Below, piece by piece: positions 3,547 to 37,947 of a stretch of 42,566 nt of DNA. Every line of letters starts with the position of its first letter. Position 1 is the first letter of the stretch. Made by a program: the position numbers and the translations under genes. Source of the stretch: a virus; the IMG/VR virus record IMGVR_UViG_3300009146_000006, positions 1 through 42,566 of that record; one strand, 5' to 3'. The notes under the pieces were generated by a model. It was given only the letters and a program-made list of their open reading frames with translations. It ran no database searches and was not told the origin of the DNA.

Positions 3547-5019
3547 ATGCCTGCCAAGGTCCGTAAGGTCAAGGGTGTCCCGCTCTCCGACAAGGAGTAT
3601 CACGAGTATCGGAGGCTGAGTCACTACGATCGCAAGAAGGCGGAGTCGTACCTGGCCAGCCGGGATCGGGAGGTGCGGCGAGAGGAACTCAGCACGCAGA
3701 ACGTTGCGCTTCGCAAGCAGGCAGCGAAGCCGGAGGAACCTCGTAACCGTAAGGTCGGCGATGTTGCGCTGACCGAGAAGCAGTACCGGGATTATCAGAA
3801 GGTACAGCGAGAGGATCCAGGTAAGGCTCAGGCTCTTCTTGCTTTGTACGAGAAGCCTGGTCAGAACGTCGCCCGCAAGAGCGGGCGGTACCTGACCAAA
3901 GACGAGATGAACAACTACGAGTATCTCGTCGGCAAGGGGATGAGGTACCTTGCCGAACAGGCTTACGGTAAGAAGCCGCGGGAGACGGCCGAGCAGGCCA
4001 CGGTACGTACTTCCGAAAATGCGGCGACCCGAGAGGCGGAGCGCGCCAAGCGAGAGTCCAGGGCACGCTTGGCTCAGCAACCGGTGCCGGGTTCCGCCGC
4101 AGCCGCCGAGCAGACGGTGTTCCGGCAGCAGGATGCACGAGCGAAGGCCAACACCGCACCTTCACAGCGGGATACCTACAAGCGTTCGGCGACTACCCAG
4201 TTTTTGGATGCCAACGGCATGCCGATGGTCTCCAAGCAGCAGCCGCAAGTACCGGTCAAGGCGTATGGGTTCGACGTGCCCAAGGGTGCGCTTGTGTGGT
4301 TGGGAACAGCCGGTGGAGTTGTGGCACCGAGTCGGGGGCATATGAACGACCCGGATGCGCCGGGTGGTCGTAACGCTCCTCGTGAGACTGATCTTGTCCG
4401 ATCGATGGATGATCTCTACGGAGAGATCGACAATCCAACGATATGGACAAAGGCCAAGATCATGAAGTTCCAGGCCGACCAGGGTTTGACGGTGACCGGA
4501 GTAGTGGGTACCGCTACTCGTCAGAGATGGGAGGCCGTCCTTACTTTTGCGGCTCGTAAGTACGCGGCAGGACAGAAGGTGTCGCCCTATGCGATGACGG
4601 ATTACCGGGCCGACGCTGACGCACCGGACGGAAAAGGTCGCGGCGGTGGGGCAGCTGCCCCAGGTGAGGCCGGTGGTGGACCGAGGACACGAACCGAGAC
4701 CAGGCTCACCAACCGCAGCACGGCGAAGGCGCTGCTCAACGCTACGTTTCGAGCGAAGCTCGGTCGGGCGGTCACCGAAGAGGAAGTCAATTCCTTCGTG
4801 GCTGCCTTGAACTCCAGCGAGAAGAAGGCCCCGGTCACAGAAGTTGGAGAGACCAACGAGGCCGGTTCGCTCGTCACGGGAACCACCAGCGGTGGTGTCA
4901 ACCCGGAGCAGTTCGCCGAAGACTGGGCGATGTCCAACAAGGGCGGTGAGGCTAACGCCCGCATGGTCGGTGTCGATTACATGGACGCCGCCCTCAAGGC
5001 GATCGGGGCGCCGGTCTGA
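3547..5019 (+). CDS. Virion-associated protein with peptidoglycan-binding-like segment, 490 aa
   Basis: The ATG follows GGGAGG by a short spacer, and the stop overlaps the next start (TGATG). The N-terminal third is highly charged and carries three imperfect repeats of an LxxKxYxxYxxL type (around residues 12-35, 75-100, 118-140). The middle is low-complexity and rich in Ala, Gln and Arg. Residues about 300-335 resemble a small peptidoglycan-binding fold (KFQADQGLTVTG then a WE pair). A C-terminal segment with ALLNATFRAKLGRAVTEEEV looks like the short helical repeat found in many actinophage structural proteins. Its place between the giant virion protein and two wall-cutting proteins suggests a part of the entry machinery. 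The exact function is unknown. Confidence 0.75.
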   Translation: MPAKVRKVKGVPLSDKEYHEYRRLSHYDRKKAESYLASRDREVRREELSTQNVALRKQAAKPEEPRNRKVGDVALTEKQYRDYQKVQREDPGKAQALLALYEKPGQNVARKSGRYLTKDEMNNYEYLVGKGMRYLAEQAYGKKPRETAEQATVRTSENAATREAERAKRESRARLAQQPVPGSAAAAEQTVFRQQDARAKANTAPSQRDTYKRSATTQFLDANGMPMVSKQQPQVPVKAYGFDVPKGALVWLGTAGGVVAPSRGHMNDPDAPGGRNAPRETDLVRSMDDLYGEIDNPTIWTKAKIMKFQADQGLTVTGVVGTATRQRWEAVLTFAARKYAAGQKVSPYAMTDYRADADAPDGKGRGGGAAAPGEAGGGPRTRTETRLTNRSTAKALLNATFRAKLGRAVTEEEVNSFVAALNSSEKKAPVTEVGETNEAGSLVTGTTSGGVNPEQFAEDWAMSNKGGEANARMVGVDYMDAALKAIGAPV

Positions 5020-6302
5020 TGGCATCCCCGGCCGAGATCGTAGAGATGGCGAAGAGGTATCTCGGTGTCCCCTATGTTTTCGGCGGTACCAACCCCAAGA
5101 AGGGGCTCGACTGTTCCGGTCTCGTGCAGCTCGTCTACAAGAACCTTGGCATCAAACTTCCCCGTCTGGTACGGCACCAACGACTTCAGGGTCGGGCGGT
5201 GAGCAGCGTCAACACTGCCCAGCCAGGGGACCTGTTGGTGTTCAACGGCTATCAGCACATCGGGATCTATCTCGGTGGCGGCATGATGCTGCACGCCCCA
5301 CAGCCCGGCGAGAAGGTGAAGATCGGGAAGGTCTATGCGAAACCTACTTCGATCCGTCGCATCATCGGCGACGGCGGGAATGGTGCGGGGAAAGACTTGT
5401 CCGGGGCGGCTCTTGGTGGAACCGGCCAGGCGAAGTCGGTCGACATGGCCACCCTGGCTTCCCGGTACGGCTACTCCATGGCCTTCTTCAAGAGTGACAA
5501 GTCCCTGTGGGCGCTGATCAACAAGGCTGTCAAGGATCAACTGACGCCGGACGAGTTCGCCGCCCAGTTGAAGAACACTGCTTGGTATAGATCGCACAGT
5601 GCATCCGACCGGGAGTGGCGCACGCTGGAACGTGTCGATCCAGCCTCTGCTCGGGCGAAGATGCACGCGACCAAGGTGCAGCTCATCCAGCTCGGTCAGC
5701 GCCAAGGCATCCATGTCGACCCGAAGCGTCTTGCCGATATGGCGTGGCGTGTCAATGCCTACGGATGGGACGAGGCGCAGGTTTCCGCGGCGATGGCCGC
5801 CGAGATGCGCTACGACCCCAAGAAGACCAATGCCTACTACGGCGAGATGGCGACCAACAAGGCCAACATCGTCAAGCAGGCCGAATCCTACGGGGTGCAG
5901 CTGTCCGAGCAGACGATCTTCAACTTGTTGAAGCAGACGGTCAACAAGCAGGTCACCGAAGGGTCCGTCACCGAGTACATCAAGAAGCAGGCGAAGGTCA
6001 AGTACAAGTCCATTGCCGATGACATCGACCGGGGTATGACGGTCGCGGACTACGCTTCTCCCTACATCGAGGCTCAGGCTCGACTGTTGGAGCTGAACCC
6101 GGCGGATGTGCATCTCATGGATTCCCACATCCAACGAGCCTTGCAGTTCCAAGATCCGAAGACCGGCAAAGCAGTTCCCGAGACCTTGTTCGACTTCGAG
6201 ACCCGCATCAAGAGCGACGGTCGGTGGATGAAGACCCGCAACGGTCGAGACACCATGATGGATGGCGCTCGTCAGGTGCTCGCCGATTGGGGTCTCGGAT
6301 AG
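5019..6302 (+). CDS. Virion protein with NlpC/P60 peptidase head and shared helical body
   Basis: 427 residues. Residues 1 to about 118 form an NlpC/P60 cysteine peptidase domain. The nucleophile is C32 in LDCSGL, the general base is H80 in QHIGIYLGGG and the third polar residue is H92 in MLHAP. Such domains cut stem peptides of peptidoglycan. Residues about 143-427 are a helical body closely similar to the body of the next gene; both share VDPKRLADMAWRVNAY and end in LADWGL. The gene starts inside the preceding stop (TGATG) and lies in the head/virion cluster, far from the lysis cassette. It is therefore probably a virion enzyme used at infection and not the endolysin, which is inference. 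Confidence 0.88.
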   Translation: MASPAEIVEMAKRYLGVPYVFGGTNPKKGLDCSGLVQLVYKNLGIKLPRLVRHQRLQGRAVSSVNTAQPGDLLVFNGYQHIGIYLGGGMMLHAPQPGEKVKIGKVYAKPTSIRRIIGDGGNGAGKDLSGAALGGTGQAKSVDMATLASRYGYSMAFFKSDKSLWALINKAVKDQLTPDEFAAQLKNTAWYRSHSASDREWRTLERVDPASARAKMHATKVQLIQLGQRQGIHVDPKRLADMAWRVNAYGWDEAQVSAAMAAEMRYDPKKTNAYYGEMATNKANIVKQAESYGVQLSEQTIFNLLKQTVNKQVTEGSVTEYIKKQAKVKYKSIADDIDRGMTVADYASPYIEAQARLLELNPADVHLMDSHIQRALQFQDPKTGKAVPETLFDFETRIKSDGRWMKTRNGRDTMMDGARQVLADWGLG

Positions 6303-6319: not shown

Positions 6320-7612
6320 GTGCCGCAGAACGTGTCTATCGACGACGTCTTGAAGTCAGTTGGGTTTTCCGGTAGTGGGCTCCAGACCGCCAAGGCGGTC
6401 ATCCTCGCCGAGTCCGGCGGTAATGTCCGGTCCTACAACGGCAAAGGAAAAGACCGTTCTTACGGTTTGTTTCAAGTCAACATGTATGGGTCCATGGGGC
6501 CAGATCGCATGGCCAAGTACGGGCTCAAGTCCTATGACGACTTGTACGACCCGTACATCAACGCCAAGGTTGCCTTCGATCTGTCCAACGGTGGCCGTAA
6601 CTGGAAGCCATGGACCACCTACGTCGGCGGTAAGTACAAGGCGTACCTGGGTCGCAACTACGACATCAGTACCGCCGGCGGGGCGAGTACCGCGACCGGA
6701 GGTGCACCGGCGGTAGGCTCCGCAGGGACGACTCTTCCCGCGGAGAAGAAGCTTGATACCGCGACGTTGGCGTCCAAGTATGGCTACAGCATGGCCTTTT
6801 TCAAGAGTGACAAGGCATTGTGGGCACTGATTCAGGAGTCGACGCGGGAGCAGTACACTCCGGACGAGTTCGGTGCCCGCTTGCGGAACACCAAATGGTT
6901 CAAGACCCACAGCGAGTCTGTGCGCAAGTGGTACGTTCTCGAACGCGCGGATGCGGCTACCGCCCAGGCAAGACTGCACCAGACCAAGGTTCGGTTGATC
7001 CAACTCGGGCAACGCCAAGGTATCAATGTCGACCCGAAGAGGTTGGCGGACATGGCGTGGAGGGTGAACGCCTATGAATGGGACGATTCCCAGGTGGCCA
7101 CTGCCATGGCTGCGGAGATGAAGTTCGATCCGAAGGTCGCCGACTACTACGGGGGCCTGGCCGAGAAGCGGGGCGAGATCAAGGAACAGGCAGCTGCTTA
7201 CGGGATCGCTGTCACCGACGAGACGGTGTTCAACCTGTCCAAGCAGCTGGTCGGTGAGACGACCACGCCGGAGGCGGTGACCGAGTACATCAAGAAGGTT
7301 GCGAAGACTAAGTATCAGGGTCTGGCTGATGACATCGACAAGGGCATGACCGTCGCCGACTACGCCGAACCCTACGTCGAGACTCAGGCCAGGTTGTTGG
7401 AGCTGAACCCTGCCGACGTCCAGCTCAACGACCCGGCTATCCAGCGGGCCTTGTCCTTCCGAGACCCCAAGACCGGAGTCATCGCGCCGATGTCGATGAC
7501 CGACCACGAGACGGCGATCAAGAAAGATCCTCGTTGGATGAAGACGAAGAACGCCAGAGATGAGATGCTCAACGGTAGCCGCCAGATCCTTGCGGATTGG
7601 GGTCTGCAATGA
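6320..7612 (+). CDS. Virion protein with lysozyme-like/transglycosylase head and shared helical body
   Basis: 430 residues, GTG start at 6320 after AGGTGAGG. Residues 1 to about 112 have the lysozyme-like pattern: catalytic E31 in LAESGG, then SYGLFQVN and an aromatic-rich C-terminal helix (GRNWKPWTTY). This fold cuts the glycan strands of peptidoglycan. After a Thr/Ala/Gly-rich linker, residues about 146-430 repeat the helical body of the upstream NlpC/P60 protein. The two genes are thus a tandem duplication with exchanged catalytic heads. A particle carrying both could cut sugar and peptide bonds of the wall during DNA entry. Activity and virion location are inferred from the family and gene position. 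Confidence 0.87.
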   Translation: MPQNVSIDDVLKSVGFSGSGLQTAKAVILAESGGNVRSYNGKGKDRSYGLFQVNMYGSMGPDRMAKYGLKSYDDLYDPYINAKVAFDLSNGGRNWKPWTTYVGGKYKAYLGRNYDISTAGGASTATGGAPAVGSAGTTLPAEKKLDTATLASKYGYSMAFFKSDKALWALIQESTREQYTPDEFGARLRNTKWFKTHSESVRKWYVLERADAATAQARLHQTKVRLIQLGQRQGINVDPKRLADMAWRVNAYEWDDSQVATAMAAEMKFDPKVADYYGGLAEKRGEIKEQAAAYGIAVTDETVFNLSKQLVGETTTPEAVTEYIKKVAKTKYQGLADDIDKGMTVADYAEPYVETQARLLELNPADVQLNDPAIQRALSFRDPKTGVIAPMSMTDHETAIKKDPRWMKTKNARDEMLNGSRQILADWGLQ

Positions 7613-15258: not shown

Positions 15259-15614
15259 GCGCCAAGACCGCCGGTCGGTATGACATCCAGATGCGTACGA
15301 ACGAAACGTTTTCGATGCAGCTCGTATACAAGGACCGCAACAAGCTGCCCATCGACATCACTGGGTACACCGCACACATGCAGGTGCGGAACAAGCCTGG
15401 TGGGAACGTGCTGATCTTGGATTCGAACAACGTCGGGAACTCGATCACCGTCGACGGCCCGAACGGTGTGGTGAATGTGGAGTTCGGGGTGGACAACATG
15501 CTGGGTGTGACTGCGCAGAAGGGTGCCTACGACTTGGCGTTGATCGACCCAGCGGACAAGCCGGCGGTGGTAGTCGAAGGAACTGTGGCGATCATCAAGG
15601 GGGTGACACGGTGA
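15255..15614 (+). CDS. Small beta-rich tail protein, BppU-N-like, 119 aa
   Basis: GTG start overlapping the upstream stop (GTGA) and itself ending in a GTGA overlap with the fibre gene. The sequence [21 protein letters not shown], then [19 protein letters not shown] and [13 protein letters not shown] matches the general look of N-terminal baseplate/fibre-holder domains (BppU-type Ig fold). Those domains dock fibres to the tail. Its coupling to the collagen-like fibre fits a fibre-anchoring role, which is inference. Confidence 0.65.
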
Positions 15615-16783
15615 CCACTCCCCCGAATCAGGTTGTACTGAACCCGCAGGACACCATTGTCGTGGAGGTCACGACCGCCGGGCCGACGGGTGCGGATGGT
15701 ATTGCCGGTCCGACGGGACCACAGGGAATAGACGGGCCTCCCGGACCGGTCGGGCCTACCGGCTTGCTGGGACCCCAGGGAGATATCGGGCCGCAAGGAT
15801 ATGACGGGGCGCAAGGCCCGCAAGGCGATGTGGGTTTGACGGGCGATGTGGGTCCGACCGGTCCGCCCGGTGCGACTGGTGACACTGGCCCTGCCGGTCC
15901 GAAAGGTGATACCGGGTCGCAAGGTGCACAAGGGGACATCGGGCCGCTTGGCCCGGTAGGTCCAATAGGACCGCAGGGTCCCGCGGGTGGGCCGCAGGGA
16001 CCACCTGGTCCGCAAGGCGACCCCGGTCCGACCGGTGCCCAGGGACCCCAAGGGACTCAAGGGATCAAGGGTGACACCGGTACCCAAGGACCCAAGGGCG
16101 ACAAAGGCGATCAGGGAAACCCAGGTACGCAAGGCATCCAAGGTGTCAAGGGCGATACCGGGTCGCAGGGTCCACAAGGGATCCAGGGAAACACCGGACC
16201 GCAGGGTGATCAGGGAATCCCAGGTGCTTCTGGTGGAACTGTCGGTCCGGCCGGCGGTTCGCCTTACACCGTTGTTGCCGCGCAGGCTAATCTTCCAGCC
16301 GCTGCCAGCAATGAGGGCAAAGCGTATTACGTCCAGGCTACGAAAACCGCGTGGGTCTCGGATGCTACGGCATGGCGTCTGACCTATGGCGACACGCTCA
16401 ATCGTGACATTTCGTCGCTGTTGGATTCCGGATGGAAACTCGGCACGACTGCCGGATACTTTCGGATGCGTCGCCTGGACAACGTCGTCTATCTGTACGG
16501 GCGTCTACAACGATTGACTGTTGCTGTCACCGGCGGCCAACCGTTGTTTACTCCCCCAACTGGCTTCTTACCGATGGCAGGGTACGTTCCGTTCGGTCCG
16601 GCGTTGTGGCATACGCCGAACCAGATCGGTATGGTCGCGAACTTCTTCGGCGGCACCCGGATCGATGCGTACTTCTACCCAACCACGCAGAACTTTGCCG
16701 TCAATGACTATGTCAGTTTCAGCGCACAATGGACTACCGACCAGTCTTGGCCTACGACCCTTCCTGGTGTTCCCTTCCCGTGA
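15611..16783 (+). CDS. Collagen-like tail fibre/receptor-binding protein
   Basis: 390 residues. After a short N-terminal anchor (residues 1-23, [19 protein letters not shown]) there is a collagen-like stretch of Gly-X-Y triplets to about residue 215, rich in GPQG, GDTG and GPTG units with one short interruption. It would form a trimeric triple-helical shaft. Residues about 216-390 form a globular beta-rich head ([17 protein letters not shown], a glycine-rich tip, and a DYVSFSAQW strand), probably the receptor-binding tip. The head-coding DNA is less GC-rich than the shaft. The repeats make this gene prone to length change by recombination. Confidence 0.88.
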
Positions 16784-16799
16784 TCGTTTGGAGACGATG

Positions 16800-17183
16800 A
16801 TGACCACTCTCACCGAACCACCAGCCTGGCCGTTGCCACAAGGTCACTACTTCGGTCCCGCTGCGACCGAGGAGGCGAACGCGGCGTGTCACTCGGGGAA
16901 GAAGGAGTGGCTGCACAACATCAAGCTCAAGCTGTGGCAGCAGCACTTCCGTGAGGTGTGGGACCGGAAGTTGGAAACAACCGGCGAGTTCGATGCGGAC
17001 ACCCAAGACGCGGTGGAACACGTGCAGGAGGCGGCGGGATGGGAGCCGTCGGGAAGGTTGGACGAGAACACGTGGAAGGTGGTGTGGACGATGGCCCCGC
17101 CGGAGGAGAGGCCAGCAGCGAAGCATGCGAAGAGGAAATCCACCACTCGTTCGGCGTTCAAGAGATCGATGAATGAGCCGTGA
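16800..17183 (+). CDS. Peptidoglycan-binding-domain protein, 127 aa, ahead of the endolysin
   Basis: Two in-frame ATGs (16797, 16800) follow GGAG; the second has the better spacing and was chosen. Residues about 45-100 form a peptidoglycan-binding type 1 domain: a Trp/Gln-rich helix (LKLWQQHFREVWDRKL), GEFDADTQDAVEHVQ, then GRLDENTWKVVW. The C-terminal 25 residues are basic. It is coupled to the endolysin gene and is probably a lysis accessory or wall-targeting factor. No catalytic residues are seen. Confidence 0.75.
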   Translation: MTTLTEPPAWPLPQGHYFGPAATEEANAACHSGKKEWLHNIKLKLWQQHFREVWDRKLETTGEFDADTQDAVEHVQEAAGWEPSGRLDENTWKVVWTMAPPEERPAAKHAKRKSTTRSAFKRSMNEP

Positions 17184-17950
17184 TGGTTGCCTTCAAGCTC
17201 GCCAAGCCGGTCCAGAACACTCAGGACCAGTTCAAGAAGTACTTCCCGAAGGCTCCCTTCCTAGGGACCATCGGCGATGCCCGACACCTCAAGGGCAGCG
17301 GTGATCATACGCCCTGGGCTAGCGACAGGATCGGGGGAAAGTCGCATCAGAAGGGGACCGTCTACGCGGCCGACCTGGGGAACGGTCCGGGATTCAGCAC
17401 GAAACAGTTTCAGACTTGGTTGTTGACACAACTGAAAGCCGGGAAGTACCCGGAAGTGAAGTACATGATCTCGAACTACCAGCTGAACGATCGCCGGTAC
17501 GGCTGGAAGAACCAAAGGGGTTCGGACGGTCCGGGACATGTGCACCTCAGCTTCATGCCCGGACATGAGAACACGACGTCGACGATCTTGCAGGACTACC
17601 ACAACTATCTGACGAAACCGAAGCCGGTACAGAAGGTGGCGCCGAAGGCACCGACAGTCTCGCCGGTACCGATCAAGGCGTTGACGAAGAACGGCGGCAA
17701 GGTGATCGGACAGAAGGTGCCGAACGCACGGGTGGTGCCGGCGAACGCCGCGCCGGTGCTGTCGTTGGGCGCGAAGGACGACCAGCTGGGTGGCTGGGTG
17801 ACGTACGCGGAGAACAAGCTGGGCGTCCCCGTAAACGGATATTACGGCCCAGAGATGACCAAAGCGGTCAAAGACCTACAGAAGCGTCGTGGTCTACCCA
17901 CCACGGGGCGTATCGACGCCACCACCTGGCGGAGTCTCGGCCACAAGTGA
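17183..17950 (+). CDS. Endolysin, M15-like peptidase with C-terminal peptidoglycan-binding domain
   Basis: 255 residues. The ATG at 17183 shares a base with the preceding stop; a GTG at 17180 is the alternative. The N-terminal domain has a zinc-peptidase pattern: H42 in GSGDHTPW, D64 in YAADLGNG and the histidines of PGHVHLSF near residue 120. This matches peptidases of the LD/DD-carboxypeptidase (M15) type used as actinophage endolysins. A Pro/Lys/Val-rich linker (about residues 150-190) leads to a peptidoglycan-binding fold with GVPVNGYYGPEMTKAVKDLQ and GRIDATTWRSLG. It lacks a signal peptide, so release should need the holin that follows. Confidence 0.82.
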   Translation: MVAFKLAKPVQNTQDQFKKYFPKAPFLGTIGDARHLKGSGDHTPWASDRIGGKSHQKGTVYAADLGNGPGFSTKQFQTWLLTQLKAGKYPEVKYMISNYQLNDRRYGWKNQRGSDGPGHVHLSFMPGHENTTSTILQDYHNYLTKPKPVQKVAPKAPTVSPVPIKALTKNGGKVIGQKVPNARVVPANAAPVLSLGAKDDQLGGWVTYAENKLGVPVNGYYGPEMTKAVKDLQKRRGLPTTGRIDATTWRSLGHK

Positions 17951-17962
17951 GGAGTACTCGTC

Positions 17963-18181
17963 ATGTTGACATCGGCGTTCTGGAGGCCGACGCTACGATA
18001 CGCGATCTTGACGTTTGTGCAGGTCATGGTCACTGTGCTGATCGCTGCCGCGGTGGATTTGTTCGACAAGAACTGGATCTTCGCGTTGGTGCTGGCGTGC
18101 GTGGCAGCGGTGAGCGCCATCGTGGCGTGCATCGTTTGTTTTCTGTTACGCCTTGACGAACCGCCGGGTCGCGTACCATAG
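17963..18181 (+). CDS. Holin, two membrane segments, 72 aa
   Basis: ATG at 17963 behind GAGGAG. Two hydrophobic segments (residues about 13-33, LRYAILTFVQVMVTVLIAAA, and about 39-62, IFALVLACVAAVSAIVACIV) are separated by a short DLFDKNW turn. The C-terminal tail is short and polar. Size, topology and position directly after the endolysin identify it as a holin that opens the inner membrane at lysis. A strong terminator follows. Confidence 0.8.
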   Translation: MLTSAFWRPTLRYAILTFVQVMVTVLIAAAVDLFDKNWIFALVLACVAAVSAIVACIVCFLLRLDEPPGRVP

Positions 18182-25027: not shown

Positions 25028-26224
25028 ATGGCGGACGAGAGATCGTCACTGAGAGTGGTTGCCGAGGCATACTTCGAGACCCTCGGGCAAGACCTCAAGA
25101 AGAGCACGATACGGGGCCACGAAACAACTTTGTACGCGCTGCGCGCTGAGGTGGGTGATGACATCCAACCCCGCAACATCACGGTGCGTCACATCGATGC
25201 GGTGTCGCTGACGTTGAAGAAGACCAACGGCAAGAGGGCCATGAACAACCACCAGTCCCGGCTGGTCCAGTTCTTCACCTGGTGCCAGGACCGGCGCATC
25301 GTGCCGCTGTCGCACAACCCGATGAAGGGCCGTAAGGCACGCAAGTTCATGGATCCGGAACGTTTCATGCTGCAGGTGGCTGAGTTCCCGGCGCTGCTGC
25401 GTGCCGCGCCGACACCTCGGGACCGTGGGGTGATCGCGACCGGGCTGTTGCTGCTGCTGCGAGCGTCGGAGATCCGCACCTTGCGGATCAAAGACCTGGA
25501 CCTGATCAACGGCACCATGAATGTGAAGGTGTGGAAGACGAACAAACGATCCCGGATGTCGATCCCGGTCGAACTCGACAGGGAGCTACGTCGTTGGTTG
25601 ACGCAGTACACACAACAGATCGACGGGCCGCTCAAGCCAACGTACTACCTGTTTCCGGGACGCAAGATGGTGCCGCTGCCCAGCGCTCGTGGTGCCAACG
25701 GTCAGTTCGTGAAGGGGTATGACATGGAAGAGGTGTTGGCTCCGTCGAAGCCGATCGGTGTGATGGAGGACTGTGTGAAACCCGCGTTGAAAGCGTTGGG
25801 GTATGAGATCAACGAGCGGCGGCCATGGGATGAGCAGAAGCGGCTGCGGGAGTTGGCGAAGCAGCGGCGTGCGGCCGGTCAGGACGTGACGAAGCGTGGT
25901 CCGAAGCCGAGACTTCGTGATGTTGATGACGAGGACGAGGAAGAGAGCGGTAACCGGAAAGGTATTCACGTGTTGCGCAGGTCCGGTGCACGGGCAATGT
26001 TCGACGCACTTCGTGCGGAGGGACACGACGGTGCGCTGCAGCGGGTACGCGAGATGCTTCACCACTCGTCGGTGAAGATGACCGAGCTGTATTTGGGTGT
26101 GTCGTTGGAGCAGGAGCTGCTCGATCAGGTGATCCGCGGTAAGCGCATGTTCCCGCAGATCGAACTCGATGACACGGGTACCACCGAGAACGTCGACGGT
26201 GTGGTCGCGTTGAGGAGAGCCTGA
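25028..26224 (+). CDS. int: Tyrosine recombinase/integrase, 398 aa
   Basis: ATG at 25028 behind AAGGAGA. The N-terminal half is a SAM-like core-binding domain (residues about 8-100). The catalytic domain carries R145 in LLRASEIRTLRI, H314 and R317 in IHVLRRSGAR, H346 in LHHSSVK and the nucleophile Y355 in TELYLG. All expected residues are present, so the enzyme is probably active. Residues about 265-312 form a charged insertion before the HxxR box. It would integrate and excise the phage genome in the host chromosome. No attP could be shown. It could instead resolve dimers, but the divergent repressor-like gene favours integration. Confidence 0.88.
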   Translation: MADERSSLRVVAEAYFETLGQDLKKSTIRGHETTLYALRAEVGDDIQPRNITVRHIDAVSLTLKKTNGKRAMNNHQSRLVQFFTWCQDRRIVPLSHNPMKGRKARKFMDPERFMLQVAEFPALLRAAPTPRDRGVIATGLLLLLRASEIRTLRIKDLDLINGTMNVKVWKTNKRSRMSIPVELDRELRRWLTQYTQQIDGPLKPTYYLFPGRKMVPLPSARGANGQFVKGYDMEEVLAPSKPIGVMEDCVKPALKALGYEINERRPWDEQKRLRELAKQRRAAGQDVTKRGPKPRLRDVDDEDEEESGNRKGIHVLRRSGARAMFDALRAEGHDGALQRVREMLHHSSVKMTELYLGVSLEQELLDQVIRGKRMFPQIELDDTGTTENVDGVVALRRA

Positions 26225-27198: not shown

Positions 27199-27255
27199 GT
27201 ACTTGTACCCAATTCGCTGGTCGTGATCTTGCGGGTTGATGATCCGTCTGCCACG

Positions 27256-27282
27256 GTGGGCAACTCACCTAAATGGGGTGAG
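27256..27282 (+). promoter_or_regulatory. Leader hairpin before the secreted-protein gene
   Basis: CTCACC and GGTGAG close a 7-base loop (about 27266-27284), extended by GGGC/GCCC. It lies just ahead of the AGGAGG ribosome site of the gene at 27306 and could modulate translation. No clear promoter was found in the 107 bases before this gene. Confidence 0.4.
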
Positions 27283-27305
27283 GCCCATCATGTCAGGAGG
27301 AATCT

Positions 27306-27842
27306 GTGCGGATCCGCTCAATCACCACCGCCGCAGTGTTGTCTCTCGCCCTGCTCGGTGGCTTCGCCGCCCCGGTAGCAGCAGCCCCGGCCACCAAGCC
27401 TGCGGCACAGTCCGTTGTAGACGTCGACGGTCTGAAGACGTTGCTGGCCACGACACCAGACGGCGGTGCCCTCTACGCCGACGGCATCGTTCCCGACAGC
27501 CCGGTCGCCAAGACGAAGGCCCGAGGTGGTGACTGCGGCTGGGTGACCTGCAGCTACTACTTCACCCGCAGCCAGACCAGGAAGGCGAACACCAACATCA
27601 ACCTTGTGGGTGGAGGCATCAACGGTCTGGCCGCATCGTGTGCGTTCATCGCCGCGATGGGTGGCCCGGCCGCACCCATCGTCGCCGCAGCCTGCGGCGT
27701 GTCGATCGTGGCCTACGGGTCGTTCCTACTGGACGCTATCCAACGGGCCGCAGCCAGCAACAAGTGTTTGCGGGTGCGGTGGCTTGTCGTCGGTGGCGGG
27801 TACTCCTTCTACGCTGACGGCAGCAAGTACTGCAAGAACTAG
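27306..27842 (+). CDS. Secreted six-cysteine protein, 178 aa
   Basis: GTG start at 27306 with an excellent AGGAGG site. Residues 1-27 form a Sec signal peptide (basic RIRS, a hydrophobic core LSLALLGGFA, cleavage likely after VAAA). The mature part has cysteines at 77, 82, 112, 130, 154 and 176, an even number that would suit three disulfides outside the cell. Residues about 98-145 are strongly hydrophobic (NLVGGGINGLAASCAFIAAM, then IVAAACGVSIVAYGSFLL), like a membrane-inserting hairpin. I know similar proteins in actinobacterial genomes but no function. It may be a lysogenic-conversion or bacteriocin-like product. The next gene encodes a small membrane protein, a possible partner. Confidence 0.8.
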   Translation: MRIRSITTAAVLSLALLGGFAAPVAAAPATKPAAQSVVDVDGLKTLLATTPDGGALYADGIVPDSPVAKTKARGGDCGWVTCSYYFTRSQTRKANTNINLVGGGINGLAASCAFIAAMGGPAAPIVAAACGVSIVAYGSFLLDAIQRAAASNKCLRVRWLVVGGGYSFYADGSKYCKN

Positions 27843-27857
27843 GGAGAGGATAGGCGC

Positions 27858-28043
27858 ATGTATCGAGTACCCGTCATCGCCGGGTGCGTCCTGATGGGAA
27901 GCCTGCCCCTGTTCTACGTCCGCTCGTCTTGGCATGAACACGGATGGGGCATGGCGACACTGCTCGCCAGCATCGTGGCGACGGGCGCTGTTGCCGCGGG
28001 AGCGTCACTGATCCTGTGGCGCAAGCAGCAGCACAACAGCTGA
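27858..28043 (+). CDS. Small membrane protein, 61 aa, next to the secreted protein
   Basis: ATG at 27858 behind GGGAGAGGA, 15 bases after the secreted-protein stop. Two hydrophobic segments (residues about 4-22 and 31-53) are separated by a polar SSWHEHGWG loop. The C-terminal tail is basic (RKQQHNS). It ends just before a terminator, so it forms a two-gene unit with the secreted protein. An immunity or anchoring role for its neighbour is a plausible guess only. Confidence 0.72.
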   Translation: MYRVPVIAGCVLMGSLPLFYVRSSWHEHGWGMATLLASIVATGAVAAGASLILWRKQQHNS

Positions 28044-28063
28044 TCTTGTAGCGTCCGCAAGGG

Positions 28064-28118
28064 GGGATGGGCGGGTGGCCGTGCTAGCGGCGTGGACCAC
28101 TCGTCCATCCCTTCCTTG
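28064..28118 (+). terminator. Long-stem terminator closing the secreted/membrane gene pair
   Basis: A 15-bp stem with two G-T pairs forms between 28064-28078 and 28097-28111; TTCCTTG follows. A new promoter with a consensus TTGACA -35 begins right inside the tail. Confidence 0.75.
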
Positions 28119-28145
28119 ACACCGTTTCGGCGGGGTGGCTACCGT
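28116..28145 (+). promoter_or_regulatory. Candidate promoter with consensus -35
   Basis: TTGACA at 28116-28121 and TACCGT at 28140-28145 have an 18-base spacer. The site lies directly downstream of the terminator and upstream of the genes from 28230 to 31883, which would form one operon. Confidence 0.55.
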
Positions 28146-28520: not shown

Positions 28521-28900
28521 CACGAGCGTGGCACTGGCTGACCGTGCGGGGCATGCGGCTGCCGACAGTGGCCGCATGCACGGTGATGCTCGGTGCACTC
28601 ATCAGCACCGTGGCTACCGGGTTCGACATCTGGAAGATCAACACCTGTGTCATGACCATGGCGTACTGGGCGGCTAGCTACTTGCGAGCCGAGACAGCCA
28701 AGAGTTTTTACTATCTGGCTGTGGCCGACACCTTGGCAGCTGTTGCTGACAGCCTCCATCGTGGCCAGGCGATCGACCTACGTTGGGTCAGTCGTCGACG
28801 GGTGATGCATCTGAGCCGGGACATGGATTCCGACTGGTACCCACCCATGGACTCCGCTGCTCTGGACCGGCACCTCAACACGCCAGCGGAGTACCGATGA
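28517..28900 (+). CDS. Membrane hypothetical protein, 127 aa
   Basis: ATGA overlap with the upstream gene. Two hydrophobic segments (LPTVAACTVMLGALISTVAT and TCVMTMAYWAASYL) lie at residues about 15-35 and 43-57; the rest is cytoplasmic-like with an Arg-rich VSRRRVMHLSRD. It could anchor the helical upstream protein at the membrane. No family was recognised. Confidence 0.65.
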   Translation: MTRAWHWLTVRGMRLPTVAACTVMLGALISTVATGFDIWKINTCVMTMAYWAASYLRAETAKSFYYLAVADTLAAVADSLHRGQAIDLRWVSRRRVMHLSRDMDSDWYPPMDSAALDRHLNTPAEYR

Positions 28901-29157
28901 AACTCATCGTGGCCACGTATCGGTCCGCCGGAACACCCGAGCTGGTGGAGGCGGTGGCCCCGGACGGTACCTACGCGGCACTGATCGACCGCGACCCCAC
29001 CTTGGACTCTCACATGCGCGCCGCCGAAGCGCTGATGTTGAAGATGGGTTACCTCCGGCGGGACTACTCCCTCTTGGACGGCACCGCCAGCACCGATCGG
29101 CACTGGACGTTCACCCTGGTGGTACGCGATGACTTCACCGAACCCCGGACGAGATGA
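28897..29157 (+). CDS. Hypothetical protein, 86 aa
   Basis: ATGA overlap. A small alpha/beta protein (KLIVATYRSAGTPELVEAV, MRAAEALMLKMGYLRRDY, HWTFTLVVRDDF). No family was recognised. It precedes the first copy of the duplicated two-gene module. Confidence 0.6.
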   Translation: MKLIVATYRSAGTPELVEAVAPDGTYAALIDRDPTLDSHMRAAEALMLKMGYLRRDYSLLDGTASTDRHWTFTLVVRDDFTEPRTR

Positions 29158-29163
29158 GAGATC

Positions 29164-29787
29164 ATGCCGATGTCCGAAGGCAGGATCTTCGAGCTGTGCG
29201 AGATGGCCTGCCAGCGCTGGCTGAAAGATTTCAGCGCAGAGGGTCTTCCCGTGTTGTTCGAAGTGTTCCTCGACTCTGACGGGAAGGGGTGTTGGATCGA
29301 TCCGATGATCCCTCAGCACATATGGCGGCGCTGCCTGGTGGAAGGGAACTACGAACCGCACCAGGTGCTGTTGGAGTGGGCCGGGATCGTGTCGAAGAGC
29401 CCACGCATCCAGCTGATGATCTCCACCACCCTGCCCAGCGGCTGGTTGTTCGTCGCCGGTGGTCGTCGTATCGAAGGCAAAGCCGATAACCCGACTGCGC
29501 AGATTGCCGAGCAGGATCAGATCTTGGCGGCAAAGCGAGACGGCCGGCTAGAGGAGCTTCCCGGGCAGGACATCGTCGCGGCCACCTGGTACGAGTACCG
29601 CGGTCCGTCGTCGGCTGCCTACACGACGGATACCAACGGCACGATGCTGGAGCAATGGATGGACCCTCGGGGTCGGATCATCGCCGGTCTTGCCATGTTG
29701 GACCAGGCATACCAGACGTCTCAAGACTATGTGGCGAGCTTGAATCCGAAGGAGCTGTCCACGTTGCGGAAGCAGGCGGACCGTTGA
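29164..29787 (+). CDS. Module protein A, copy 1, 207 aa
   Basis: ATG at 29164 behind GAGATGAGAG. It opens with IFELCEMACQRWLKDFSAEG and GCWIDPMIPQHIW, then SGWLFVAGGRRIEGK, EQDQILAAKRDGRLEELPG, TWYEYRGPSSAAY and a C-terminal LAMLDQAYQTSQDY helix. The protein at 30453 follows the same order of motifs end to end, so the two are paralogues. The Cys and Trp positions are conserved between them. The stop TGA overlaps a TTG start of module protein B. No domain family was recognised. Copy 1 and copy 2 are separated by a helical 77-residue protein. Confidence 0.72.
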   Translation: MPMSEGRIFELCEMACQRWLKDFSAEGLPVLFEVFLDSDGKGCWIDPMIPQHIWRRCLVEGNYEPHQVLLEWAGIVSKSPRIQLMISTTLPSGWLFVAGGRRIEGKADNPTAQIAEQDQILAAKRDGRLEELPGQDIVAATWYEYRGPSSAAYTTDTNGTMLEQWMDPRGRIIAGLAMLDQAYQTSQDYVASLNPKELSTLRKQADR

Positions 29788-30211: not shown

Positions 30212-30445
30212 GTGGACTCGGACAGCGTCAACAAGGACATCATCATGCACGGCTTGCTTGGTTACGTGCAGCTCGAGACCCGAAGGATCCGAGCCGAGAT
30301 CGACAACACCGAAGCAGCTCTGGCTGGGCTGCAGCACATCGACCGGGTCGTTGCCACCGTCATCGAGATGATCTGTACACCGCCCGATCAGATCGACAAG
30401 TTCTTCAGTGTCCTCGACAACGCCAAACGAGACCGTCAGGAGTAA
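30212..30445 (+). CDS. Helical hypothetical protein between the module copies, 77 aa
   Basis: GTG start at 30212 behind TTGGAG. It is almost entirely helical (GYVQLETRRIRAEIDNTEAA, IDRVVATVIEMI). It separates the two A/B modules. Just upstream (about 30171-30190) CCAGCTAAA occurs twice. Function unknown. Confidence 0.62.
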   Translation: MDSDSVNKDIIMHGLLGYVQLETRRIRAEIDNTEAALAGLQHIDRVVATVIEMICTPPDQIDKFFSVLDNAKRDRQE

Positions 30446-30452
30446 GCCAAAG

Positions 30453-31079
30453 ATGCCTCTCTCCGAGACCACTGTCTTCGATCTGTGTGTGACCGCCTGC
30501 CATGAGTGGCTCGACGACTACGGCAAAGACGGCTTGCCCTCGCTGTACGAGGTGTTCATGGACGGCACACAGGGATGCTGGGTGTCTTCGGTGATCCCCG
30601 AAGCGGTGTGGCAGCTGGCCTTCGCAGCCGGCGGCAGCCCGCAGACGGTGCTGTCGGGATGGATCAAGACCGTGTGCACCACCCCGAAGATCCAGCTGTC
30701 GATCTACGACAACCCACCGAGTGGGTTCTTGCTGGTCGCTGCTGCCTGGCATGCCAGCTCCGAAGGCAACGACCCCGCGGCACTAGCCCGACAGGATCAG
30801 ATCATCGCGGCGGTACGGGAGGGCAAGGTGGAAGAACAGCCGGGCAGTCGGGAAGTTGTCACTGCCACCTGGTATGAGCGGGGTGGGAAGTCGTCGGCGG
30901 CATCCATCTTGGACGTCGAAGACAAGCAGACTCTGGTGCAGTGGAAGAGTCCCAAGGGTGGGATCGTGCACAGTCTCGCCTTGCTGGACAAGGCGTACGA
31001 TTCGTGCTGCAAGGTGTACGACACCTACAGTGCGGACAAGTTGGCTCAGATGCGGAAACAACAGAAGGAGCGAACGTGA
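30453..31079 (+). CDS. Module protein A, copy 2, 208 aa
   Basis: ATG at 30453 behind CAGGAG. Paralogue of the protein at 29164: VFDLCVTACHEWLDDYGKDG, GCWVSSVIPEAVW, SGFLLVAAAWHAS, RQDQIIAAVREGKVEEQPG, TWYERGGKSSAAS and LALLDKAYDSCCKVYD match in order. The pairwise divergence is substantial, so the duplication is old or was acquired separately. Coupled by GTGA to protein B copy 2. Confidence 0.72.
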   Translation: MPLSETTVFDLCVTACHEWLDDYGKDGLPSLYEVFMDGTQGCWVSSVIPEAVWQLAFAAGGSPQTVLSGWIKTVCTTPKIQLSIYDNPPSGFLLVAAAWHASSEGNDPAALARQDQIIAAVREGKVEEQPGSREVVTATWYERGGKSSAASILDVEDKQTLVQWKSPKGGIVHSLALLDKAYDSCCKVYDTYSADKLAQMRKQQKERT

Positions 31080-31883: not shown

Positions 31884-32053
31884 CTGGTCTCTTCTTCCGC
31901 GTTCGCAATCGCGATCGTTGCCGGATCGTGCGGCAGTCCAAGATCCTTCTCCAGCTTGAGCACCAGCCGGGCAGCAGCAACCTCGTACGGCTGAACGTAG
32001 ATCACGTTCTGCTGTCCGTCCGGAGCGACAGGTGTCTGCTGAGGTGCGCTCAC
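31880..32053 (-). CDS. Small leftward protein, 57 aa, last gene of the leftward operon
   Basis: GTG at 32053 in a GTGA overlap with the preceding gene. It reads MSAPQQTPVAPDGQQNVIYV and continues with EVAAARLVLKLEKDLGLP to an acidic end. The coupling and protein-like composition support it. The stop lies within the shared CTAG. No family was recognised. Confidence 0.7.
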   Translation of the reverse strand: MSAPQQTPVAPDGQQNVIYVQPYEVAAARLVLKLEKDLGLPHDPATIAIANAEEETS

Positions 32054-32394
32054 TTGTCTGAGTCCTTCCGTAGCCTGACGATCTTCGCGTCGGGACGCGC
32101 CTGGTACTGGGCTTGCGGCTCGGCATACAGGTGCGTCAGCATACCCAGCGCGTACGTCTTGTCATCAGACTTGAGTACACCAGAGTCCAACAAGTGGTTC
32201 AGCGACGCAAGACCAGCTTGAATCTTGACCGGTTCGCCCGTCAACACGAGGTTGACAGACCATGTGATCAGTTCGAGGTTCTTGCCCCGGTTCGTCGTCT
32301 CCTGTGTCAGACGGGCCACGTACACCCCGCTGAACATGCCCAGGATCGGACCTACCATGGCAACGGTAGATGCCACCACCAACGTTGTATCCAT
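32050..32394 (-). CDS. Small membrane-anchored protein, 114 aa
   Basis: The ATG at 32394 shares a base with the upstream stop. A single N-terminal membrane segment (residues about 5-27, LVVASTVAMVGPILGMFSGV) is followed by a soluble helical domain with LASLNHLLDSGVLKSDD and a basic end. It is probably attached to the inner membrane. Membrane-bound small phage proteins are often superinfection-exclusion factors, but this is only a possibility. Confidence 0.68.
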   Translation of the reverse strand: MDTTLVVASTVAMVGPILGMFSGVYVARLTQETTNRGKNLELITWSVNLVLTGEPVKIQAGLASLNHLLDSGVLKSDDKTYALGMLTHLYAEPQAQYQARPDAKIVRLRKDSDK

Positions 32395-32615
32395 CAGCAG
32401 GCAGTCCTCCACTCCACGTCATCCAAGATCTTGCACACCCGCGGGTGTGACACGGCCATCTGTCTGGCAGCCTCCCGTCGGGACATCCCAAGATCATGCA
32501 CCAGGTAGCGGGCTACCTCCCGTAGCGACCGTGCCAGACGGGCATCGGCGTCGGCCTTCGCCGCCCGAGCCGCCGACAGCTCGATGATCATGTTCCTAGC
32601 AGCGTCCGAGTCCAT
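32394..32615 (-). CDS. Small HTH protein, 73 aa, of the leftward operon
   Basis: ATG at 32615 behind AAAGGAGAGAGAG. A helical N-terminal part (DADARLARSLREVARYLVHD) leads to a helix-turn-helix (MSRREAARQMAVSHPRVCKI) at residues about 44-63. It could bind the CTAGTTGC motifs in its own and neighbouring leaders; this is inference. Confidence 0.72.
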   Translation of the reverse strand: MDSDAARNMIIELSAARAAKADADARLARSLREVARYLVHDLGMSRREAARQMAVSHPRVCKILDDVEWRTAC

Positions 32616-36016: not shown

Positions 36017-36084
36017 ATGTGTTTGGGTGTGGGTGTTCAGGCGGTTGGCCCTTGTGGTGGGCCGTGGTGGTTTCAGGGTGGTTC

Positions 36085-37947
36085 GTGGCTGAGGTGGTCG
36101 GGTTGGCGAAGGTGTATCGGGTGGTGGGTGACCGGGACCCGAAGGTGGGGATCCGGGAGGCGAAGAAGATTGTGCTGCGGGAGTTGTTGGACTTCCGGAC
36201 GGTGCGAGAGGCAACCGCGGCAGCGGGCCGGTTGCCGCAGACCTACGAAGACTGGATGCGTAAGGATCCGGAGTTCCATGCTGCCGTGTCGCAGTTACGC
36301 GCGGTGCAGCGCAGAGGTGCGAAGGCACGCCAGGATCCCGGTACGTTCGAACACTTCCGGCTGCGCTATCTGAACTCTCGGACTTTCACTCATCAGCTGC
36401 AGTGGATCGACCTCCTCGAAGGTCGAGACCCGCGCGATCTCCATCCCTCCGTGCTGTTCGAGAAGGGAACTCCGAACAGGTTGCTGGTGTGTACGCCGCC
36501 TAACCACGCCAAGAGCACCACCATCACCATGGATTACGTGACCTACCGCATCTGTCAGAATCCTGCGGTGCAGGTCATCTTGGTGTCGAAGACGTCGATG
36601 CAGGCGAAGAAGTTCTTGTACGGGATCAAGCAGCGACTGACCTCGCCGAGGTATACGAACCTGCAGCTGGCGTTCGCTCCGGCCGAGGGGTACCGGTCCT
36701 CGGCCGATACCTGGACCACGGACAAGATCTATCTGGAGCGGGATTCAGATCAGAAGGATCCGACCGTGGAGGCCATCGGTCTGGGTGGACAGATCTATGG
36801 TGCCCGCGCCGATCTGATCATCTGCGACGACGTGGTGACGTTGTCGAATGCGCATGAGTACGAGAAGCAGATGAGCTGGATTCGTCAGGAGGTGGCGTCC
36901 CGACTGGGTCCGGCCGGCCGCCTGCTGGTGGTGGGCACCAGGGTGGCGCCCACCGACCTGTACTCGGAGCTGCGCAACCCGGAGCACTACACGACCGGGG
37001 TCTCTCCGTATACGCGCTTGGCGCAGCCGGCCGTGCTGGAGATGTCGGAACGTAAAGAGGACTGGATGCCGTTGTGGCCGCGGTCGGATGTGCCGTTCGG
37101 CGATGAGGGCGACAACGAGCGGCCCGACTCCGAGGGCTTGTTCTCGCGGTGGACACCGGCCCGGCTGTATGAGGTCCGTAACGAGATGGGGCCGAAGCGG
37201 TGGTCTTTGGTCTACATGCAGCAGGAGGTCTCCGAAGAGTCGGTGTTCGACCAGGAGAAGGTGCGTGGTGCGCGGAACAAGGACCGCCGGCCGGGACCGA
37301 TGGTCGAAAAGCGGCGCGGTCACCGCGCCGAGGGCATGACGGGGCTGTACGTGGTGGCCGGGTTGGACCCGGCGATGGTGGGTGACTCGGCGATCGTGGT
37401 CCTCGGTGTGGACCGCCTGACCCGCATGCGGTACGTGCTGGACGTGCGGGTGAAGACCTCGGCGGGTGCTCGCTGGATCCGGGAGCAGATCCGGGAGGTC
37501 ACCGATCTGTACAACGTCAACGAGTGGCGGGTGGAACGCAACGCGTTCCAGGGCTTCTTGACCCAGGACCCGGAGATCAATGAATGGCTTGCCTCCCAAG
37601 GGGTTGTGCTGCAGGAGCATCACACCGGGAAGAACAAATGGGACATTGATTTTGGTGTCGCGAGTATGTCGTTGTTGTTCGAACAGAACCTGATCGAGCT
37701 GCCGACGACGGTACAGGCGGTGGGGATCCAGACGTTGGTGGAGCAGTTGGTGACATGGGCGCCGGAGACCCGCAACAAGGCCGACACCGTGATGGCTCTG
37801 TGGTTCGCCGAGATCAGGGCGCGAGAGGTGATCCGCACCCAGATCAACCGGTCGTCCTCCTACCAGCGGAACCCGTTCTTGTCGAAGTCACGGAAATCGG
37901 AGCAGACTGTCGTCAACCTGCAAGAATGGGCGCGGGTCGCCGGGTGA
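36085..37947 (+). CDS. terL: Terminase large subunit with N-terminal helical/HTH-like extension
   Basis: 620 residues with a GTG start at 36085. The frame stays open to a GTG at 36019, but that stretch is low-complexity and Trp/Gly-rich. Residues about 22-75 form a helical region (TVREATAAAGRLPQTYEDWM) like a small-terminase DNA-binding domain. ATPase: degenerate Walker A CTPPNHAKSTT with K143, Walker B ADLIICDDV with D248 and D249. Nuclease: D428 in AGLDPAMVGDS, E484 in VERNAFQG, D567 in NKADTVMALW. It pumps DNA into the prohead and cuts it. No separate small subunit gene is seen. The portal follows within 13 bases. Confidence 0.9.
   Translation: MAEVVGLAKVYRVVGDRDPKVGIREAKKIVLRELLDFRTVREATAAAGRLPQTYEDWMRKDPEFHAAVSQLRAVQRRGAKARQDPGTFEHFRLRYLNSRTFTHQLQWIDLLEGRDPRDLHPSVLFEKGTPNRLLVCTPPNHAKSTTITMDYVTYRICQNPAVQVILVSKTSMQAKKFLYGIKQRLTSPRYTNLQLAFAPAEGYRSSADTWTTDKIYLERDSDQKDPTVEAIGLGGQIYGARADLIICDDVVTLSNAHEYEKQMSWIRQEVASRLGPAGRLLVVGTRVAPTDLYSELRNPEHYTTGVSPYTRLAQPAVLEMSERKEDWMPLWPRSDVPFGDEGDNERPDSEGLFSRWTPARLYEVRNEMGPKRWSLVYMQQEVSEESVFDQEKVRGARNKDRRPGPMVEKRRGHRAEGMTGLYVVAGLDPAMVGDSAIVVLGVDRLTRMRYVLDVRVKTSAGARWIREQIREVTDLYNVNEWRVERNAFQGFLTQDPEINEWLASQGVVLQEHHTGKNKWDIDFGVASMSLLFEQNLIELPTTVQAVGIQTLVEQLVTWAPETRNKADTVMALWFAEIRAREVIRTQINRSSSYQRNPFLSKSRKSEQTVVNLQEWARVAG

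Follow-up and report, generated by a model that had tools for sequence, protein, structure and literature searches.

The window (the whole stretch of DNA analysed, 42,566 bases, which is virus record IMGVR_UViG_3300009146_000006) carries two adjacent genes, A and B, on the plus strand, at the same positions at which an earlier note on this DNA had placed them. Gene A (27306–27842; recognised as an open reading frame and by its homologues) encodes 178 amino acids from a GTG start, with a Shine-Dalgarno sequence, AGGAGG, at 27295–27300. The product is predicted to be exported by the Sec pathway and contains six cysteines, at residues 77, 82, 112, 130, 154 and 176. Its signal peptide (residues about 1–27; 27306–27386), assigned from sequence and hydropathy with a predicted cleavage site, includes a hydrophobic segment at residues 9–27 that ends in AxA-type cleavage motifs; there is no lipobox cysteine at its end, the first cysteine being residue 77. 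A leader segment of 48 amino acids follows (residues 28–75; 27387–27530), which is conserved in the phage versions of the protein with the motif KTLLAxTPxGGALYAD and is a possible propeptide. The six-cysteine core (residues 76–178; 27531–27842), defined by AlphaFold and a two-sequence alignment, contains two further hydrophobic segments, residues 100–118 and 124–142, in a region that hydropathy and the structure models assign to a hydrophobic helical hairpin (27597–27755) including Cys112 and Cys130.

Gene B (27858–28043; open reading frame, hydropathy and homologue) begins 15 nt past the stop codon of A and encodes a small membrane protein of 61 amino acids, with predicted transmembrane segments at residues 3–21 and 35–53. 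The outside loop features the motif SWxExxWG, conserved between the two versions of the protein, and the conservation of the loop and of the transmembrane segments is ordinary. These predicted properties agree with the earlier description of A as a Sec-exported, six-cysteine protein with a hydrophobic hairpin and of B as a two-segment membrane protein. The third-position GC excess typical of the genes of this phage is present in both genes and, taken with a second contig that has both and with the dN/dS of A (see below), marks A and B as real genes.

The 3′ end of the unit is probably formed by a strong hairpin at 28058–28118. An 86-nt segment containing it has a folding energy of -48.5 kcal/mol, compared with a mean of -32.9 kcal/mol for shuffled sequences (z -4.6), and the stem is nearly unbroken. 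The claim that the pair is closed by its own terminator is thus upheld as far as a very stable hairpin is concerned; since the hairpin lacks a T-run (it is also unlisted by the consensus terminator scanner), it is graded here as a probable terminator. Directly behind it, at 28116–28145, a promoter-like sequence for the downstream genes, TTGAC-N19-TACCGT, is the single match to the pattern TTGAC-N17..19-TANNNT across both strands of the window (0.6 expected per strand), and fits a new transcription unit starting there. Upstream of A, neither the consensus scan nor the same pattern search reveals a promoter. Another stable hairpin lies just 5′ of the ribosome-binding site of A, at 27253–27290, with no space for a promoter between the two; from its predicted folding, it may be an upstream terminator or a leader structure involved in regulation. 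Own Shine-Dalgarno sites and the closing hairpin support the treatment of A–B as a unit.

The AlphaFold model of the core of A, based on a two-sequence alignment, has a pLDDT of 72.7 and a pTM of 0.67; its elements are, in order, a strand, a helix, the helical hairpin, a long helix and a final β hairpin. The full-length protein, with only two sequences in the alignment, is modelled poorly (pLDDT 43). Foldseek comparison of the model with the PDB and with viral models returns nothing below E 0.4. The earlier note gave no known family function for the pair, and searches agree: A and B have no significant profile match in Pfam, NCBIfam or PHROGs, including the bacteriocin and toxin families, no PDB sequence matches, the PADLOC profiles of anti-phage defence give nothing below E 0.01, and A resembles no toxin or bacteriocin in these collections by either sequence or fold. 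Rfam yields chance matches only.

The window virus is, as judged from its gene content, a temperate actinophage. A tyrosine integrase, identified by profile searches at 25028–26224 (+), indicates the temperate lifestyle. The terminase large subunit (36019–37947, +; profile and sequence searches), which forms the other border of the variable region, is 44–47% identical to those of Streptomyces phages such as Immanuel3 and FlowerPower, and 72–78% identical to those of several metagenomic virus contigs. An endolysin-type gene (17180–17950) is adjoined by an r1t-type holin gene at 17963–18181 (+), which matches the Pfam family with 32.0 bits against a cut-off of 26.9. There are no tRNA genes in the window.

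Both genes are found again in a divergent phage contig of 8,780 bases, L006 (IMGVR_UViG_3300037071_006046). The L006 version of A is 60% identical across its length and keeps all six cysteines, while that of B is 41% identical; the gene order is unchanged, and 23 nt separate the two genes. Judged by the substitution rates between the two versions (dN 0.29, dS 2.1; dN/dS about 0.14), A is under purifying selection. The gene at 28783–29157 (+), recognised by comparison of the loci as a landmark whose homologues flank the cassettes in relatives, allows the arrangements to be compared. A, B and the 28783 gene follow one another in this order in the window, all on the strand of the terminase gene; L006 has the 28783 homologue ahead of A–B, which are on the opposite strand there, with the direction of the terminase unchanged. 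The pair has been inverted and relocated and is nevertheless adjacent and in the same order, which indicates that the genes moved together and that, on this comparison, A–B travels as one cassette. This joint movement, seen in one further contig, is the strongest argument for regarding A–B as one functional unit, as the earlier note had proposed. The window and L006 are the only two A–B loci found: searches of viral contigs with A, B and plasmid-homologue queries (see below) return the L006 sister as sole contig or nothing, none of 50,697 phage genomes gives a tblastn match to A, to its L006 sister or to two of the plasmid homologues, and B has one weak match in phages (E 0.06). Candidates raised by searches of genome contigs were not confirmed.

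Comparison with relatives also confirms that the pair is accessory. G004, a relative of 42.2 kb that has an integrase, contains neither A nor B and has a different secreted and anchored pair in the same region. On the minus strand there, a gene for a Sec-exported protein of 172 amino acids (L039:4406-3888) is followed immediately past its stop by a lipoprotein gene with an LAGC lipobox (L039:3887-3471), and an additional lipoprotein paralogue stands alone at L039:5205-5621 (-). In a second related phage contig, L042, the same pair of secreted protein and lipoprotein is encoded at L042:3974-4923 (+), adjoining the 28783 homologue. Relatives of the exported protein, with a partner gene downstream, also occur on the three Streptomyces plasmids examined. 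On one (L043:2129-3410) the gene that follows the secreted homologue encodes a lipoprotein; on the other two (L044:2111-3368 and L045:2132-3328) its place is taken by a short partner ORF with a related domain, which as annotated has no lipoprotein start. The proteins of these operons belong to no Pfam or NCBIfam family. The operons resemble A–B in encoding an exported protein and then an envelope-anchored partner, and those of the related phages are located, like A–B, in the variable region close to the homologue of the 28783 gene. They differ from A–B in that the sequences are unrelated, with no similarity seen between the two kinds of pair, and in that the partner is a lipoprotein rather than a two-transmembrane protein.

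Remote homologues of A are encoded on plasmids of Rhodococcus qingshengii, R. fascians, R. sp. WAY2 and Corynebacterium faecale (L021, L024, L030 and L034), where they are annotated as hypothetical or are unannotated; the Rhodococcus proteins are WP_125053460.1, WP_027494160.1 and WP_159930009.1. With tblastn, A gave weak matches to Rhodococcus plasmids (39% over 83 residues, E 0.6). Direct comparison gives E 1e-10 and profile–profile comparison a probability of 94%. When the four plasmid proteins are combined into a profile, A scores 19.1 bits with it, and 2,000 shuffles with the cysteines fixed reach 8.8 bits at most. By these sequence measures the relationship is real. Like A, the plasmid proteins have a signal peptide, and the motif CGxxxC[TS]xY[FY], a C-[LV] and a final YC are found at matching places. 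They have four or six cysteines: Cys112 and Cys130 are missing as a pair in the R. fascians and WAY2 proteins, where the other four are kept, which suggests that these two residues bond with each other in A. Unlike A, the plasmid proteins have no leader of the phage type, and none of the four loci examined has a B-like gene directly downstream; B itself has no match in the plasmid collection. Upstream of every plasmid homologue lies a divergent gene (L021:952-2637, L030:942-2633, L034:6804-7628 and L024:1624-2697). Two of these have TetR-like N-termini (weak matches below threshold), the Corynebacterium gene has a LysR-type substrate domain, and the R. qingshengii gene has no recognised domain. 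Separate distribution of the genes, which the earlier note counted against its proposal, is seen in part: the remote homologues of A on the plasmids lack a B-like neighbour, whereas A and B are together in both of the two phages. In the literature found, no paper names the plasmid homologues or describes a family to which A belongs.

As discussed above, A–B is an accessory unit of a temperate phage, with its own closing hairpin, and is absent from G004; these are the features of a moron or lysogenic-conversion gene, and we consider it very probable that the pair is such a cassette, in the general sense of cargo directed at the envelope. The presence of A homologues on mobile actinobacterial plasmids was counted in favour of this reading. 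The earlier note offered a toxin/immunity pair or a lysogenic-conversion gene; it is the second type that is supported, while the first keeps the rank of a candidate. The layout itself, a small, predicted exported protein encoded next to a membrane partner, is that of bacteriocin and immunity genes. Among the specific functions considered, an exported protein of bacteriocin type whose membrane partner confers immunity ranks first; we find this reading possible, although we would stop short of calling it probable. Prophage genes whose products act at the envelope are already known as a kind; A, B and their layout appear not to have been described in the sources searched.

In such a mechanism, A would be exported by the Sec pathway and fold outside the cell, presumably with three disulfides, namely the Cys112–Cys130 pair of the hairpin and two among Cys77, Cys82, Cys154 and Cys176. 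It could then target neighbouring bacteria at their envelope, the likeliest route being insertion of the hydrophobic helical hairpin of A, while B, in the membrane of the lysogen, would protect the producer by binding either A or the target of A. Bacteriocin immunity proteins usually take one of two forms, lipoproteins and small membrane proteins. Points in favour of the toxin/immunity reading are the paired mobility, the purifying selection on A, the hydrophobic hairpin clamped by cysteines, the membrane partner, the comparable pairs that relatives carry in this region, and the precedent of sublancin and SunI; the SPbeta prophage encodes both a secreted antimicrobial with disulfides, sublancin 168, and its immunity protein (PMC6391423). 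Sublancin differs in that the peptide is glycosylated and has its own genes for export and modification, and in that sunI is transcribed separately; none of these genes is present here. The main evidence against a toxin/immunity pair is the set of plasmid homologues that lack B, two of which also lack the cysteine pair of the hairpin; the lack of any toxin or bacteriocin match, the finding of only two A–B loci and the ordinary conservation of B count against it as well.

The main rival explanation is superinfection exclusion, in which A and B, or B alone, at the envelope of the lysogen would prevent other phages from adsorbing or their DNA from entering. Envelope proteins with this function are common in temperate phages, the relative G004 carries lipoproteins in the same region, and several other small membrane proteins are encoded within the variable region. 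There are precedents in the Ltp lipoproteins of S. thermophilus phages, which act in superinfection exclusion (PMC3952083), and in gp30/gp31 of Butters, a two-gene prophage defence system (PMC7542560). Like A, the Ltp lipoproteins are exported proteins from the lysogeny region of a temperate phage, but A has no lipobox and has a membrane partner. Butters is an actinophage, and its system, like A–B, is a variable-region unit of two genes, one of which encodes a membrane protein; by description, rather than by sequence comparison, it is set apart by a gp30 that is not exported and a gp31 with four transmembrane segments. A is predicted to be soluble and exported, with neither lipobox nor anchor except the hairpin; a secreted protein with disulfides is not something that exclusion systems usually require, and homologues of A are present on plasmids, far from phages. 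We regard this explanation as rather unlikely; if correct, it would be an unusual kind of exclusion, using a secreted protein.

Alternatively, A could serve the lysogen at its surface or in secreted form without any antibacterial role, for example as an adhesin-like, matrix or anti-predator protein, and B could help to export or anchor it. The leader segment and stable cysteine core of A are compatible with this, and the plasmid homologues, alone beside divergent TetR-like or LysR-like genes, are placed as expected of regulated secreted factors. It leaves unexplained both why B was kept with A through the inversion and why a second secreted and anchored pair is found at the same region, and is improbable. 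A chance association of two unrelated neighbours, to which the plasmid homologues without B might point, is already disfavoured by the same order and similar spacing in two phages despite inversion and relocation, and is very improbable. Least probable of all is a role in lysis, with B as a second holin or antiholin and A as an exported helper: B has the size and two-transmembrane shape of a class II holin, and its homologue has holin matches below threshold (E 0.02 and 0.065), but B itself has none and is not beside the endolysin, the pair is distant from the lysis genes, absent from the 42-kb relative and closed by its own hairpin, and B as the lysis holin was rejected in view of the separate r1t holin, which leaves B free for another role.

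Prophage-encoded bacteriocins are known from Bacillus (sublancin), but such cargo has received little attention in actinophages. A wider reading of the lysogenic-conversion cassette, which we hold to be on the doubtful side, is that temperate actinophages of this group have a site at which two-gene secreted and anchored cassettes are swapped, that the pool of these cassettes is common to the phages and actinobacterial plasmids, and that A–B is the first of a new class of Sec-exported disulfide bacteriocins with a tiny two-transmembrane immunity protein. Should A–B prove to be bacteriocin cargo, A would represent a new family of exported disulfide proteins common to actinophages and plasmids, the pair would be an easily tested toxin/immunity candidate, and the locus would be a variable phage site from which such cassettes can be collected.

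Some other features of the window were observed. The gene at 15611–16783 encodes a collagen-like (Gly-x-y) tail fibre. The neighbouring structural genes at 5019–6302 and 6320–7612 encode products that are 62% identical in their C-terminal part and differ in their N-terminal domains, which by eye are NlpC/P60-like and lysozyme-like. Within the variable region, the genes at 29164–29787 and 30408–31079 are a paralogous pair (42% identical). The genes at 32050–32412 (-) in the window, L006:2018-2446 (-) and L039:6248-6610 (-) encode small proteins that have a single membrane segment at the N-terminus and share a conserved tail, and proteins of this type are kept across several relatives within the variable region.
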